A stretch of 5,043 nucleotides of DNA, taken from Oscillospiraceae bacterium. Its GTDB lineage: Bacteria > Bacillota_A > Clostridia > Oscillospirales > CAG-272. The notes beneath the pieces are model-generated. The model had not been told where the DNA came from and ran no database searches. It saw only the letters and a program-made list of their open reading frames with translations. This document shows, piece after piece, positions 12-5,039 of this stretch. The stretch spans positions 1 through 5,043 of the forward strand of contig SVRU01000110.1 in NCBI GenBank assembly GCA_015064665.1, written 5' to 3'. The translations under genes and the position numbers were made by a program. The first letter of the stretch is position 1. Each line of letters opens with the position of its first letter.

Positions 12-1541
12 TTAACTTTTATTTTTATCGAGTAGAGATGTAAGCTGACGCGCTTTTTTCTTTTGGATTGCTTTATAAGGTGAAACGTCAAGCTTGAGGA
101 AGGATTCTTTCAAACCGGTATGTATATCGTTATCATTGTAATTAGTGACGAAGTCCCAGAGGTCTTCTCCAAAGGTAGATTCTCTTGTATCGTTACGTGA
201 GAGTATTCCGACCTGTGCTAAATTACGCATAAACATTCGCTCGGAACGTTTTTCATCTACACCTCTAGAATAGGAGTACCAAACGTCTAGTACTGCCTTA
301 TCCGGTTGGTCATCTATACGAACACGGCGAAGACGCTTCCACCAATCCATAGGGGGAGAATCCAGGTCTAATCTATCCTCTGTGAATTCAATGACCTCGG
401 TCATTAGTTTGGTAATAAATTCACGTCGGAGGTCTAAGATCTTATAGAGCCTATGTAATGCCGGAGAGCATTCGTGCTTATAATCATAACAGCTAATGAA
501 GTGATCGCACTTATGATAAAATTTTCGTTTCGTTTCAAACTCTACGTTGAGAATTACGGTCGGCTCCGGGAGAATTCCTTTTATCTGCTTTTCCATATAC
601 GGATTATTTTCACTATTAATATTGCAGCTCTTAAGCAGCTCCTCAAGTTTTTCCTTTAATTCATGATTTTTTCCGTTTTCAAGATACCATTTTATACGAC
701 CGACAAGACAACCGGTTTTGAAAGATTTCATTTCATACGCTGTCTGATAGACGTACAAATCATACCGGGATATAAGTCCCCTGGTTCTCCAGAACTCAAA
801 GAAGAACGCTTTATAATTCATTTGAACAACTTCTTTTGCCTTTGCGTAGGTTCTAAAAAAGACGTTATTGGAACGTCGAGACCCCAGCGCAAAATAGTCA
901 AGATCAAATAACTCGCTATGCTGCGTCGTAATCCACATGTGTTTATATACGTCTCGGAGAGAACAAACAAGGTGCTTTGAAAGTGATTCGTCGCAAAACA
1001 TTGTAATAGGCTTTTGAATGAGATTCGTATGGAAAGCGTAATCAATACGGTTTTCTGTAACCTCTAAAATACTAATATCATAAGCTCTAAGCATAAGATC
1101 AAGCGCGTCAAAACTTTTATTGATAGCACCGTAAAGACCGTCAAGAATGAGCGAATATGTACGAAGCTGTACCTGTATCCTGGGCGTTTTCTCGTTTGGA
1201 AGATAATCCGATATAAATATATCGAATCTCTCCTCGCAGGTAAGACGATATCCATAGAGGCCGCCGCCGACAGCCGCACCGAAGGAGCTTACCGACAAGT
1301 TATGAAAAACAACCTCTTCAGAGGGATTAGCCTTCTTCTGAGTTTTGAATACATTGAGATCATAAAGGAGATCAATAATACCGTCGTGCTCTACGTTAGG
1401 CTTATCATCTTTCAGATAAACGCTGTAATATAGAGTATCTATATGATGCGATACGGCTTTTTCTTTTATTCCGAAGTGATATTCCTGCTCTTCGGAGGTA
1501 AACTCTTCGAATATCTTAGCTCGCTTGACAGAATTAAGCAT
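12..1541 (-). CDS. rep: Rolling-circle replication initiator (Rep_trans-like), 509 aa
   Basis: Probable replication initiation protein, acting as a nicking and joining enzyme at a double-strand origin. The order of motifs resembles the replication initiation factor family found in pT181-type plasmids and some filamentous phages: a strand IQVQL at 122-126, RIDYAFHTN at 165-173 (the family's R-x-D signature), then YFALGSRRS at 216-224 running into FFRTYAKAKE at 228-237, which matches the family's G-S-x-x-S ... R-x-Y-x-K block, and an RYDLYVY strand near 259-265. Tyr232 is the best candidate nucleophile by position. A tail of about 230 residues, including DWWKRLRRVRID at 399-410, makes it longer than plasmid Reps of about 300 aa. 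I chose the ATG at 1541 because AAAGGAG lies six to seven bases upstream; an in-frame ATG at 1676 would add 45 residues but has no such site and would read through the palindrome at 1558-1580. Family by eye, not searched. Confidence 0.72.
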   Translation of the reverse strand: MLNSVKRAKIFEEFTSEEQEYHFGIKEKAVSHHIDTLYYSVYLKDDKPNVEHDGIIDLLYDLNVFKTQKKANPSEEVVFHNLSVSSFGAAVGGGLYGYRLTCEERFDIFISDYLPNEKTPRIQVQLRTYSLILDGLYGAINKSFDALDLMLRAYDISILEVTENRIDYAFHTNLIQKPITMFCDESLSKHLVCSLRDVYKHMWITTQHSELFDLDYFALGSRRSNNVFFRTYAKAKEVVQMNYKAFFFEFWRTRGLISRYDLYVYQTAYEMKSFKTGCLVGRIKWYLENGKNHELKEKLEELLKSCNINSENNPYMEKQIKGILPEPTVILNVEFETKRKFYHKCDHFISCYDYKHECSPALHRLYKILDLRREFITKLMTEVIEFTEDRLDLDSPPMDWWKRLRRVRIDDQPDKAVLDVWYSYSRGVDEKRSERMFMRNLAQVGILSRNDTRESTFGEDLWDFVTNYNDNDIHTGLKESFLKLDVSPYKAIQKKKARQLTSLLDKNKS

Positions 1542-1590: not shown

Positions 1591-1678
1591 ACGATTTTCT
1601 CAGTATTTTCAAGGGTTTTCGGGGTTTTATGTGTGAAGCGTATTACAACCACGCCACCCGTGCGGAGAAAATTCAAAA

Positions 1679-1739: not shown

Positions 1740-1946
1740 TTATTTAGAATTTCTCAAAAAATTCTCAGCTTCTTCCTTGCCGTAAGACCGTTCGAGAGCT
1801 CTGGCGAAGGCTTCATTAACATCGAAGCTAACGAATTTAGGCTTTTGCGCAGTCTTTTTGCACCGGCTCTTATTCTGATAGTATGCCCGGATCTTCCCGG
1901 CACGGTAGGCGGCTTTTTCGGCAGCCGTGAATTTGTGATATTTCAT
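1740..1946 (-). CDS. Small basic protein of unknown function, 68 aa
   Basis: I do not recognise a named family. The protein begins MKYHKFTAAEKAAYRAGKIR and is strongly basic in its first half (a cluster of Lys and Arg around residues 17-35), then turns acidic and helical, with an AFARALERSYGKEEAENF-type helix near the end. The AEKAAYRAGK segment is like the Y-x-x-G motifs in the 72- and 84-residue proteins of this element, so the three may be distant relatives or share a nucleic-acid-binding role (inference). The start at 1946 is set by AAGGAG six bases upstream; an open frame continues to 2057 but crosses the structured non-coding region and has no ribosome binding site. It sits between that region and the large hairpin before rep, and could be a replication accessory factor. 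Confidence 0.7.
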   Translation of the reverse strand: MKYHKFTAAEKAAYRAGKIRAYYQNKSRCKKTAQKPKFVSFDVNEAFARALERSYGKEEAENFLRNSK

Positions 1947-2241
1947 AACTATCTCCTTGGAGAAGGAATTTCGCCTTCTGCGGAAGGCGAGCGACAGACG
2001 TCGCAACAAGCACGCCCGAGGGCGCGCAAAGCGTCTTTCGACGCATTGAGAACACAACCCTTAAGGTTGAAGAAGGAGGGGACGGGAAGGGTGCGAACAG
2101 TGCGAGCTCGGCAAGCCGAGACGTGCATCAGAGCGAACCGAGCTATCCTAAAGTGACAAATGTAATACATTGCACCTCGAGCTTAACCGTAATACATTTC
2201 CGACGTCGAAAATGTATTACTTTTTCTGCGCGTGAAATGTA
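1947..2241. other. GC-rich, hairpin-dense non-coding region; candidate origin or control region
   Basis: No convincing gene lies here. By hand count 1981-2160 is about 58% G+C, well above most of the window. Short inverted repeats follow one another: TCGCCTTC/GAAGGCGA (1971-1978, 1983-1990), GCGAC/GTCGC (1991-1995, 2000-2004), GCGTC/GACGC (about 2031-2044), CAACC/GGTTG flanking CTTAA (about 2055-2069), and CTCGGC/GCCGAG (about 2107-2120). At its end stand the AATGTATTAC repeats and their palindrome. Such density of foldable elements next to repeats and near a Rep gene suits a replication origin (double- or single-strand) or a structured leader RNA. Which one is inference, and I find no nick-site consensus that I can assign. 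Confidence 0.5.
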
Positions 2242-2245
2242 TTAC
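2159..2245. repeat. Cluster of four AATGTATTAC repeats
   Basis: Four copies of the ten-base motif AATGTATTAC lie here: two on the minus strand (2162-2171 and 2189-2198) and two on the plus strand (2211-2220 and 2236-2245). The last overlaps the stop codon of the regulator gene. Flanks are partly conserved (TGA before and TTGCACC after copies at 2162 and 2236), suggesting a unit of about 20 bp. The core GTATTAC is itself a palindrome with one central base, as expected of a site for a dimeric protein. A fifth copy is in the nuclease promoter. They could be operators, replication iterons, or both. Confidence 0.85.
2189..2220. repeat. 32-bp near-perfect palindrome built from two repeat copies
   Basis: Two AATGTATTAC copies face each other around the self-complementary centre CGACGTCG (2201-2208). 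All 32 positions pair except one, C2200 against A2209. It could extrude as a cruciform, fold as a hairpin in single-stranded DNA, or bind a cooperative pair of dimers. There is no U-tract of terminator type directly after it on the minus strand. Confidence 0.8.
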
Positions 2246-2472
2246 TTTGCACCTTCAGCGTGAGCTTCAGCTTTGGCTACGTACTCCTTCATAGCAACTT
2301 CGAGAAGATCGGCGACGGTGAATTTATCATAAGCGTAGCCGCTACCGTCTCGATAAGTATAGTAATTCCGTCCTCCTCGCCCGGTGAAGCTCTCCGTCCT
2401 GGAAGAGATAACGTCGTTAACCTTCCCGAGAAGCTCCGAGTTAACTCTGAGGCTTATAACCTTATCTCGCAT
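2242..2472 (-). CDS. Ribbon-helix-helix DNA-binding regulator, 76 aa
   Basis: Probable dimeric DNA-binding protein of the Arc/MetJ/CopG fold. Residues 4-10 (KVISLRV) form the N-terminal beta strand that would pair with a second subunit and enter the major groove; NSELLGKVNDVISSRT (11-26) is the first helix; FTVADLLEVAMKEYVAK (51-67) is the second helix. Between the helices is an unusually long insert (about 27-50) rich in Gly, Tyr and Arg, where typical members have a tight turn. The start is fixed by AAGGAG at 2482-2487. It is divergent from the nuclease gene 73 bp away, and AATGTATTAC sits inside the nuclease promoter as well as four times after this gene, so repression of the nuclease and perhaps copy-number or operon control is the natural inference. 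I see no clear promoter for the gene itself. A short antitoxin-like role is possible. Confidence 0.78.
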   Translation of the reverse strand: MRDKVISLRVNSELLGKVNDVISSRTESFTGRGGRNYYTYRDGSGYAYDKFTVADLLEVAMKEYVAKAEAHAEGAK

Positions 2473-2490: not shown

Positions 2491-2520
2491 TTGACAAATG
2501 TATTACTTTTGCGATATAAT
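2491..2520 (+). promoter_or_regulatory. Consensus sigma-A promoter of the nuclease gene
   Basis: TTGACA (2491-2496) and TATAAT (2515-2520) both match the consensus perfectly, 18 bases apart. Transcription would begin near 2527, leaving a leader of about 19 nt before the ATG at 2546. A promoter this strong on a cargo gene with an operator in its spacer implies it is meant to be held shut. Confidence 0.88.
2497..2506 (+). promoter_or_regulatory. Operator-like AATGTATTAC between the -35 and -10 boxes
   Basis: This is the fifth copy of the repeat, isolated from the other four by 250 bp and placed directly after the -35 box. Bound protein here would block RNA polymerase. With its flanks (TGACA before, TTTTGC after) it resembles the copy at 2153-2173. 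The probable ligand is the ribbon-helix-helix protein encoded next door (inference). Confidence 0.7.
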
Positions 2521-2545
2521 AAAGAAAAAACTTTTGAGGTGTACT

Positions 2546-3496
2546 ATGGATAATAAACTTGTTTGTCCCATTTGCGGTGAGCCGACTCGCATCTGGATGG
2601 GTAACGCACGTAAAGACCGTCTTTGCGGAAAACACGCTGATATGCTCAAAGCAGGCGAGCTTATCCTCGATGATAAAGGACATTACGTTAAGGTCAATAC
2701 AGCGCCTAAAGCGACTATGGAAGAACCGGCGCCGGCGAAGGAAGAAGCAAAATCTGATTTAACGTGCATAATTTGCGGTGAGCCTTCAAACGGGAAGCCC
2801 CAATGCAAAAATTGTTATTATGAAACAAAAGATTTTATGGAAGTTTTAGATAAAAACAGTTCCACAAGAAAAATACGCGACTATTATTACAACCTAAAAG
2901 AAAGAATTTTAATAATAAAAAGCGTAGAAGAAACTCGCAAACAATGCAACAAACTAATTGCAATAGCAATGGTTGCTGAAACATATAATGATGATACCTC
3001 TTTAATTGATAGAGTATATAAAGATGTCGAAGCACTGATGAAAGGCAAACAAGCACCTAAACATAACGACAAATATGAAGAAGAGCGAAAAGAAAAAGAC
3101 GAAAAGAAAAGCAAAGTAAATACAGCTCTCGACGGTCACAATGTAGATTCTGATATGGAAGTAAGAATTGATGATGTACTATTCAACGCCTGTATTCTTC
3201 ACTCTTATGGAGCTAGTATAGAAGAAATAATAGAAAAACGAAAAAAATGCGATTGGTATATTCCTATCACAAACGACAGAGGAATTTATATAGAATATTG
3301 GGGTATGAAAACGCCAAAATACCTTGAAGAACGTAAAGAAAAAGAAGAACTATACAAAAAATACGATATACCATACATCGGTATAGAAGCAGACGATCCT
3401 AAGCAAGATATGCAAACGTTCAAATCAAATCTAATACGAGATATAACAAAACTCGCAATAAAAAGATACGGTTTTATGCCTAGATGGAAAATTTGA
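2546..3496 (+). CDS. Double zinc-ribbon protein with PD-(D/E)XK-like nuclease domain, 316 aa
   Basis: Probable metal-dependent DNA endonuclease, of unknown target. First comes a zinc site C7-x2-C10 with C27-x2-H30, a charged Ala/Glu/Pro linker (about 52-70), and a second site C74-x2-C77 with C87-x2-C90. A helical middle (about 92-165) and a Lys/Glu-rich, probably coiled-coil stretch (174-190) follow. The C-terminal domain (about 200-305) reads like the restriction-endonuclease fold: Glu205 in SDMEVRIDDVLF, Asp236 in CDWYIPI, Glu250 in IYIEYWG, then Lys264/Lys266 in the next helix and a PYIGIE strand. The lysine is moved off the strand, as in related helicase-linked nucleases. I use the ATG at 2546, preceded by GAGG at 2536-2539; an upstream in-frame ATG at 2498 lies inside the promoter. 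G+C falls from about 47% before 2820 to about 31% after, so the gene may be a fusion of two sources. It is the only long plus-strand gene and looks like cargo: defence, inter-element competition or toxin. Confidence 0.75.
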   Translation: MDNKLVCPICGEPTRIWMGNARKDRLCGKHADMLKAGELILDDKGHYVKVNTAPKATMEEPAPAKEEAKSDLTCIICGEPSNGKPQCKNCYYETKDFMEVLDKNSSTRKIRDYYYNLKERILIIKSVEETRKQCNKLIAIAMVAETYNDDTSLIDRVYKDVEALMKGKQAPKHNDKYEEERKEKDEKKSKVNTALDGHNVDSDMEVRIDDVLFNACILHSYGASIEEIIEKRKKCDWYIPITNDRGIYIEYWGMKTPKYLEERKEKEELYKKYDIPYIGIEADDPKQDMQTFKSNLIRDITKLAIKRYGFMPRWKI

Positions 3497-3500
3497 TGTT

Positions 3501-3540
3501 ACAGAACACGCTTTTAAGGCGTGTTCTGTATTCACTTTTA
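3501..3540. terminator. Terminator between the convergent nuclease and 84-aa genes
   Basis: Arms ACAGAACACGC (3501-3511) and GCGTGTTCTGT (3519-3529) pair perfectly around a seven-base loop, four bases after the nuclease stop. T-rich sequence follows on the plus strand. The minus side has a weaker T-run, so it serves mainly the nuclease and perhaps also the operon arriving from the other side. Confidence 0.8.
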
Positions 3541-3792
3541 TCTCTTTTTCAAATTGTGCTTATATGCTTTAGCGTTATCTTTTCGAGCATCAAGATAACC
3601 AGAACGATAAGCTCTACCCGCATCAGTCAAACCAATATCGCCAAACTCATTTTGTTTATAAGCGCCGTCGTTCGTATAACGAATACCCGTACTGAGTTCA
3701 GCGGCATATTTGCTTGCCTTTTCGGCTGGATTAAGAAGAGTAACAGTTTTTCCCTTCTTAGTTTTAACTTTTTTTCCTCCAAAACCAAACAT
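3538..3792 (-). CDS. Small basic mobile-element protein, 84 aa
   Basis: Function unknown. The layout is one I associate with small proteins of Firmicutes phages and plasmids: a basic, Gly-rich start (MFGFGGKKVKTKKGK), a TVTLLNPAEKASKYAAEL segment (17-34), a TGIRYTND strand (36-43), and a closing LTDAGRAYRSGYLDARKD helix (56-73) followed by AKAYKHNLKKR. The A-Y-R-S-G-Y-L-D-A-R-K-D motif recurs in altered form in the 72-residue protein. No signal peptide or membrane segment. It is the last gene of the minus-strand operon, 79 nt after the 69-residue gene. Its ribosome binding site is poor: GGAG lies about 13 bases upstream of the ATG, so translation may be weak or start in an unusual way. A DNA- or RNA-binding role is suggested only by charge. 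Confidence 0.72.
   Translation of the reverse strand: MFGFGGKKVKTKKGKTVTLLNPAEKASKYAAELSTGIRYTNDGAYKQNEFGDIGLTDAGRAYRSGYLDARKDNAKAYKHNLKKR
3652..3680 (+). promoter_or_regulatory. Possible plus-strand promoter inside the 84-aa gene
   Basis: TTGTTT (3652-3657) and TATAAC (3675-3680) are 17 bases apart; the -10 matches five of six positions, the -35 only three. It points at the plus-strand terminator at 3845-3878, so an antisense RNA of about 190 nt is possible. The bases are also under coding constraint on the other strand, so chance is a real alternative. Confidence 0.25.
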
Positions 3793-4586: not shown

Positions 4587-5039
4587 CTATTGACTTTTTA
4601 TGAAATATGTGATAGAATACCTACGGAAACGGTCGTCCTGTCCCAAATGGGAATGTGTTGACAATGTGCGTATGCGCGCCGTTTCTTTTTTATTTTTTGT
4701 ATTTCTTAATTTTCTCCCGATCATCTCGGTGTATTCGAAGCCGTTTTTCCGCCTCATCAAACGCATTGTAACGATCCACAGAAAATTTTTTCTTACACCT
4801 GAATTGGAATCGGAATCGGAGTGCTTGTCCGAAACACCACCTTTAATATTATCAATCCAATTCTGAGCAGATATTGAAAAAGAAAGAAGCGTTATCAAAA
4901 GAGCTATTACAAGTACTACTATTTCTATAGAATCGCAACCAATAAGACCGTAAAACTCGTCTAAAAGATCCCCCCCGGAAAGATTGAGTATTTTAATTTC
5001 GCCTCTAACCGGGATAAACAAGAATTTATTATCAGCCAT
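4587..5039 (-). CDS. Single-pass membrane protein with basic C-terminal tail, 150 aa
   Basis: Unrecognised. The first 36 residues are soluble-looking (MADNKFLFIPVRGEIKILNL, then GGDLLDEFYGLIG). Residues 38-57 (IEIVVLVIALLITLLSFSIS) form one clear transmembrane helix. An Asp/Ser run (DSDSDSNS near 73-80, from repeated GGAATC on the plus strand) precedes a tail rich in Arg and Lys (83-150). The positive-inside rule would place the tail in the cytoplasm. The head faintly recalls the start of DUF3846 proteins, but that fold does not continue past the membrane helix. It is preceded by rep across the circular junction with a 15-nt gap, and followed by the 72-residue gene. The last third overlaps a plus-strand RNA candidate, so its extent there is less certain; a frameshifted C-terminus is possible. 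Confidence 0.65.
   Translation of the reverse strand: MADNKFLFIPVRGEIKILNLSGGDLLDEFYGLIGCDSIEIVVLVIALLITLLSFSISAQNWIDNIKGGVSDKHSDSDSNSGVRKNFLWIVTMRLMRRKNGFEYTEMIGRKLRNTKNKKETARIRTLSTHSHLGQDDRFRRYSITYFIKSQ
4590..4618 (+). promoter_or_regulatory. Sigma-A-type promoter for a small plus-strand RNA
   Basis: TTGACT (4590-4595) and TAGAAT (4613-4618), each five of six to consensus, are separated by the ideal 17 bases. Transcription would start near 4625, exactly where the stem of the RNA candidate begins. No plus-strand gene with a ribosome binding site follows. Confidence 0.6.
4625..4698 (+). ncRNA. Candidate small structured RNA, about 65-75 nt
   Basis: The expected 5' end, GAAACGG (4626-4632), pairs perfectly with CCGTTTC (4679-4685), and T6-A-T6 (4686-4698) follows, so the RNA's own ends make the terminator stem. 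Inside are two small hairpins: TCCC/GGGA (4641-4644, 4649-4652) with loop AAAT, and GCG/CGC (4668-4670, 4675-4677) with loop TATG. It is antisense to the end of the membrane-protein gene, which it could regulate, or it could act elsewhere on replication or on the host. Promoter, start, folding and U-tract agree, but all were found by eye; the interior hairpins are short. Confidence 0.5.

Follow-up and report, generated by a model that had tools for sequence, protein, structure and literature searches.

CopG of rolling-circle plasmids of the pMV158 type is a small ribbon-helix-helix (RHH) protein, which acts at its own copG-repB promoter and represses by covering the promoter hexamers. The repeats of Omega (ParB of pSM19035) are contiguous, non-palindromic 7-bp units, WATCACW, arranged in runs of 7-10. 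Omega-type proteins are described as controlling partition and copy-number genes via parS sites lying over promoters (PMC9499535), and the element families outlined for C. difficile in PMC6807378 include one that has Zot and an RHH protein of the Arc type. No published description of the regulator-plus-repeat module presented here was found in the open-licence literature.

The stretch of DNA analyzed, called the window below, is 5,043 bases long and represents a small, plasmid-like element from gut Clostridia. Its sole plus-strand gene encodes a nuclease; on the minus strand lie the genes of a 76-aa regulator and a 509-aa Rep-like protein, one small ORF between them and five further small ORFs. 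None of the nine window proteins gave a convincing match in Pfam or PHROG, and the window DNA had no match in plasmids and phages or in Rfam. The 509-aa replication-initiator-like protein (12-1541, minus strand), which belongs to no Pfam family, has relatives in two C. difficile plasmids (6.8 and 6.5 kb, 31-32%), in a Clostridia contig (L031/L095, 42%) and, by an alignment search, in 31 IMG/VR loci; a single-sequence scan with Rep yielded none, and none was found in phages. The small ORF located between the repeat array described below and rep (1740-1946, minus strand) has no relative in the loci compared. Connecting the two ends of the window gives the ORF that starts at 5039 a ribosome-site-like GGAG, and for this reason the window may be a complete circle.

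Two small C. difficile "plasmids" annotated as hypothetical proteins (L043 and L044) resemble filamentous phages: a Zot-domain gene was found in L044 (PF05707, E 4.8e-17), and L043 has a coat-like 95-aa ORF, recognized by eye.

The promoter of the nuclease gene, TTGACA-18-TATAAT (2491-2520, plus strand), agrees with the consensus at 12 of 12 bases, with the hexamers at 2491-2496 and 2515-2520 and an 18-nt spacer in which the ten-base motif AATGTATTAC is located at 2497-2506 (plus strand). This confirms the arrangement described in a first-pass annotation of the window, whose range of 2497-2545 included the site and left the -35 hexamer outside. At a looser threshold of 9/12, 11 promoter-like sites were listed in the window (10.7 expected), the nuclease promoter being the only one with 12/12. 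The operator-like palindrome in the spacer, site E (AAATGTATTACTTTT; 2496-2510, plus strand), has its core GTATTAC at 2500-2506 and its centre at 2503, compared with a spacer midpoint of 2505.5, and is the same as site C of the array (2210-2224) at 15 of 15 bases.

Five copies of AATGTATTAC were found in the window (0.01 expected; five copies reached in 0 of 200 shuffles), at 2162-2171 and 2189-2198 on the minus strand and at 2211-2220, 2236-2245 and 2497-2506 on the plus strand. The four additional copies that had been reported for the end of the divergent gene are thus present: they are located where the 76-aa ORF of the minus strand ends, one overlapping its stop codon and three lying beyond it. 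The true unit is the palindrome AAwGTAWTACwTT around GTAWTAC, centred at 2165, 2192, 2217, 2242 and 2503, which explains the occurrence of the motif on both strands. The clearest unit is site A (2159-2171), a perfect 13-bp palindrome, AATGTAATACATT, located 27 bp from site B (2189-2198, minus strand); site B is 25 bp from site C (2211-2220, plus strand), and the latter 25 bp from site D (2236-2245, plus strand), which covers the regulator's stop codon, an overlap also found in locus L086. In total, six GTAWTAC cores occur in the window against 0.54 expected, the sixth (1640-1646) within a hairpin that precedes rep. Across the array, the minus strand has no entry in the list of sigma-70-like sites scoring 9/12 or more, its best sequence there reaching 7/12; the lack of a canonical promoter favours an origin- or partition-type role there over that of a plain operator.

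The regulator gene (2242-2472, minus strand) encodes a protein for which the earlier label of ribbon-helix-helix is plausible but weakly supported: no Pfam family matched the window protein, and weak matches were obtained for some relatives, RHH_1 in 7 of 45 (best 0.046) and CopG_antitoxin in 5 of 45 (best E 0.0028). A profile search identified 43 related proteins, many of which end in K before the stop, as AAG-TAA-TAC would encode, the DNA being readable for a minority. In the structural model two helices, 12-25 and 53-74, flank a hairpin, and residues 1-11 are not assigned as strand in the monomer. Comparison of the model with the PDB gave no informative match and RHH chains did not stand out; the protein may nevertheless have that fold.

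Relatives of the regulator were sought in overlapping samples of 295, 6, 394, 391, 247 and 246 genomes, which gave four good loci: L086 (genome G192), L084 and L085 (both G934) and L087 (G1186). In all four the regulator gene has GTAWTAC sites at its 3' end, which begin at or shortly before the stop codon. Relative to the last stop base, the first site is centred at 0 in the window and L086, at -19 in L084 and L085 and at -7 in L087, and 8 of the 10 intervals between neighbouring sites, window included, measure 25-27 bp, the remaining two being 40 and 50. The number of GTAWTAC per 200 bp around the stop codon, for the window and the four loci, is 4, 4, 2, 2 and 3; these counts were matched in 0, 0, 1, 0 and 0 of 1000 shuffles of each stretch. 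L084 and L085 have 271 bp in common at 97%, just the regulator gene and its sites, in different surroundings, and were therefore counted once, giving three independent loci. Eight weak partial matches (L048, L082 and L088-L093), which have no array and a single site in one case, were left out of the count. A viral contig with a 36% match to the regulator (L028) was rejected: the alignment looked low in complexity and the GTAWTAC cores were 5 kb off.

A scoring matrix built from the nine sites of the regulator relatives only was applied to the window. Sites C, E, A and D ranked first to fourth (15.53 to 14.16), site E being second with 15.45; the next-best score was 9.56, and site B was the weakest of the array (6.08). 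Among 60 mono-nucleotide shuffled windows the best score had a mean of 10.1 and a maximum of 16.1, and one shuffle reached the score of site E. The three-site pattern was found in 1 of 146 genomes of the family of G192, namely the genome with the regulator, at the regulator gene. It was found in 0 of 197 genomes of the family to which G934 and G1186 belong, a result of little weight since the pattern misses the accepted relatives there (two sites in G934, a wider gap in G1186).

The Rep proteins that accompany the array come from different families, Viral_Rep in L084, REP_ORF2-G2P in L094 (a longer stretch around L087) and none named by Pfam in the window; no Rep was seen in L085 and L086. No regulator was detected in viral contigs by two alignment searches, and neither regulator nor nuclease in plasmids or phages. 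An exact scan of viral contigs for the motif in its promoter returned 27 stretches, probably chance given the size of the collection. These findings identify the motif as belonging with the small regulator, not with the nuclease, gene and sites being inherited together, in agreement with the link between repeats and divergent small gene drawn in the first-pass annotation. Of the trio of motif, regulator and nuclease, for whose joint occurrence a search had been proposed there, motif and regulator recur, whereas the complete set was seen in the window only.

L084 contains an integrated element (9788-13224) with a Viral_Rep-type initiator (E 4.3e-13) and a Zot-domain protein at the Pfam cut-off. 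In this element a PemK/MazF-family gene (E 3.2e-32) overlaps the regulator relative.

The start codons of the nuclease and the regulator are 73 bp apart, and site E would probably, on this ground, also repress the regulator. There is a substantial chance, somewhat short of even, that this is its primary function, site E being the regulator's own operator in a divergent negative autoregulation and any effect on the nuclease a by-product of the shared 73-bp region. The regulator's best candidate promoter, TACACC-16-TATTAT, with its -10 ending at 2516, would start transcription beside site E, but it is weak (8/12). The relatives also argue against this role: in L084 and L087 the regulator overlaps the preceding gene and no GTAWTAC lies upstream near the start; for L085, the part of the upstream region that was available is likewise free of it.

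The sixth core belongs to a conserved hairpin with TTGTAATACG (1626-1661, minus strand), a candidate rolling-circle origin upstream of rep. Of 33 elements, 12 carry TGTARTACG in the 450 nt that precede rep (0.96 expected for an even spread of the 18 matches), two partial Rep matches (L126 and L127) having been dropped before the count. The hairpin with TTGTAATACG is located near 5193 in L043, near 5054 in L044 and near 3955 in L095, and occurs in L097-L104; upstream of rep it is usually short, for example GGGACAGTCTTGTAATACGTCCCA, as judged from five folded stretches, L084 included. It is a candidate for a rolling-circle origin common to C. difficile plasmids and inovirus-like contigs.

The core of the array, TGTAATAC, is also the core of this hairpin, and the same match between array and candidate origin was found in two other elements. 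In L084, whose initiator is of the Viral_Rep type, GTAATAC also occurs in a strong hairpin close to the initiator gene, about 1.9 kb from the array. In the inovirus-like L098 another small gene ends in ATG-TAA-TAC, with sites at 4790 and 4822, GTAGTAC at 4866, the hairpin core at 4910 and then rep (spacings 45, 32, 44 and 44). The small protein of L098 is RHH-like by eye only: Pfam gave no RHH match, and profile comparison with the 76-aa protein gave a probability of 1.6. Elements that keep the repeats and have lost the regulator, named in the first-pass annotation as evidence against its reading, were therefore seen in part: in L098, the small gene with TGTAATAC repeats at its end encodes a protein of no detectable kinship to the 76-aa protein. 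On the viral side, a raw count of 31 stretches fits the three-site pattern, and 0 of 31 encode a regulator relative.

The most unusual finding of this analysis is the occurrence of one core in both array and candidate origin of several elements. Either the regulator binds the origin, and the identity of the cores suggests that it may act there, or Rep binds the array. The second possibility, in which the repeats reproduce the nick-site core of the origin as binding sites of the replication initiator, with site E as an accidental or captured Rep site, is unlikely. It would account for the shared TGTAATAC, for the repeats of L098 that end in the hairpin, beside a small protein not detectably related to the regulator, and for the GTAATAC in the origin-like hairpin of L084. 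However, the array accompanies the regulator gene across elements whose Rep families differ (window, L084, L094), it lies about 1.9 kb from the hairpin in L084, and two or more GTAWTAC within 60 bp occur in only 4 of the 35 elements of this Rep type (31 IMG/VR loci, the window, L043, L044 and L095).

The 316-aa protein (2546-3496, plus strand) consists of a Cys-rich N-terminal part, a helical middle and a C-terminal Vsr/EDxHD-like nuclease fold. This catalytic-domain fold, shared with the Vsr/EDxHD (PD-(D/E)xK-like) group, backs its earlier designation as a nuclease; a search with Foldseek alone found nothing at E <=0.001. As possible catalytic residues, E205, D209, D210, H219, D236 and E250 are invariant in 22 sequences.

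Relatives of the nuclease were found at 14 genome loci. The ten-base motif was absent from all 11 of these that were searched. A near-consensus promoter (10-12 of 12) precedes 6 of 10 nuclease relatives, and GTANTAC was found within 200 bp upstream of none of the 10, a set that excludes L032, which repeats the sequence of L031, and the fragments L040-L042; in L033 the start codon was taken about 100 bp too far downstream, so that the promoter shows at -162. No regulator relative is present in the 14 nuclease loci, no nuclease relative was seen in the four regulator loci, which are partial contigs or stretches, and no nuclease was found in viral contigs. By these three counts (6/10 promoters, 0/10 sites, 0/14 regulator relatives), a strong promoter is usual in the nuclease family, and the operator has been added in the window element. 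The absence of the site from the 10 relatives would also be expected if site E were a chance or neutral relic, a duplicated fragment of the array with no effect on expression; its complete identity with site C and its position, centred in the spacer of the sole 12/12 promoter, make this very unlikely.

The idea that silencing the nuclease is the purpose of the system found no support: none of 10 nuclease relatives has the motif, and no nuclease relative was seen in the partial stretches of the four regulator loci. The further suggestion of a weapon in plasmid addiction or superinfection found no support, as nothing obtained here bears on either. PMC6813254 reports toxin-antitoxin genes and superinfection exclusion for inoviruses in general, and these reports do not concern the window's nuclease.

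The pairing of regulator and nuclease was seen only in the window. Both still circulate in one element pool, as indicated by a 746-aa ORF beside the regulator in L086, relatives of which occur in 8 of the 14 nuclease loci (L029, L030, L033-L037 and L042). No longest-contig size of the four closest regulator clusters is found among the 120 listed of 581 nuclease clusters; there is weak evidence that the two usually travel apart.

The 746-aa ORF (L086:509-2749) is multi-membrane, with an ATPase-like APPRTGKD stretch recognized by eye, and its first 414 residues had no Pfam match. By its recurrence it marks an undescribed class of Clostridia mobile elements. The 84-aa convergent neighbour of the nuclease (3538-3792, minus strand) has a relative in 5 of 14 nuclease loci, close to and convergent with the nuclease in L033, L034, L036 and L037 and about 2.6 kb off in L030; it may have a partner or immunity role. 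On contig L095, Rep and an integrase-like ORF are accompanied by two tandem nuclease-family ORFs (8613-10375), one of 240 aa and a second copy with an interrupted frame.

The small protein could also be antitoxin-like, with the nuclease here and the MazF-like protein in L084 as its toxin partners and the sites as its operators. The weak CopG_antitoxin matches of 5 of 45 relatives and the gene overlap in L084 point in this direction. A type II toxin-antitoxin system, however, is a conserved pair in one operon, an organization approached by the overlap in L084 alone: regulator and nuclease are divergent in the window, no toxin is visible beside the regulator relative in L086 and L087, and all 14 nuclease loci are without a regulator relative. 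We regard this explanation as highly improbable.

Starting from what was observed directly, that is, the site, the promoter and the co-inheritance of regulator and motif, we infer with good but not full confidence that the 76-aa protein binds the palindromes, that the array serves the replicon and that a captured site E keeps the nuclease low. The regulator would recognize AAwGTAWTACwTT, its main sites being the array at its own 3' end, on the rep side, which would serve copy control, partition or the next genes; the main job of the array is thus probably on the replicon. Since an extra copy of the site sits inside the nuclease promoter, the nuclease is probably held off by the regulator: protein bound at site E, between -35 and -10, would exclude RNA polymerase, and probably repress the regulator's own promoter as well. 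A fall in free regulator would then raise nuclease output. This reading is weakened by the loosely assigned fold of the regulator, by the one shuffled window that reaches the score of site E, by the failure to find a second element with both regulator and nuclease, and by the viral stretches and the eight weak matches, in which pattern and protein occur apart.

A wider reading is put forward tentatively and is rather doubtful as a whole. The 76-aa protein and its repeats may form a mobile module of small rolling-circle elements, in which the protein would cover the nick site TGTAATAC and so set copy number, the array would provide sink or handcuffing sites, and the captured site would couple the nuclease to replicon copy number, with release when the protein/DNA ratio falls; the match of array and origin would have been reached in different elements. 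If so, one very small protein would tie the firing of the origin, the copy number of the plasmid and a nuclease carried as cargo together via one 7-bp core, the rule "GTAWTAC from the regulator's stop codon" would find such modules annotation-free, and a conserved candidate origin would be marked for a Rep type unnamed by Pfam.

Compared with the Vsr/EDxHD nucleases (Vsr, I-Bth0305I), the window protein has a different N-terminal part, with Cys pairs, no intron and no known target. With the inovirus-like and plasmid elements of C. difficile and IMG/VR the window shares the Rep family and the origin-like hairpin. Unlike inoviruses, characterized by a Zot/pI-type ATPase and a small coat protein, it has no recognizable Zot or coat gene by Pfam and PHROG among its nine proteins, although Rep relatives do occur in inovirus-like elements and one C. 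difficile Rep relative has a Zot-domain gene. The locus resembles Omega in combining a small protein, here a candidate RHH protein, with several short repeats that overlap promoters. It differs in having palindromic sites, 2-4 in each array and mostly spaced by 25-27 bp, and in that no ParA-like ATPase, a component of Omega/ParB-type partition, was matched near the regulator by Pfam or PHROG among the nine window proteins. With CopG it has in common a small protein, here again a candidate RHH protein, on a replicon of rolling-circle type, the main array of the window being located downstream of the regulator gene.
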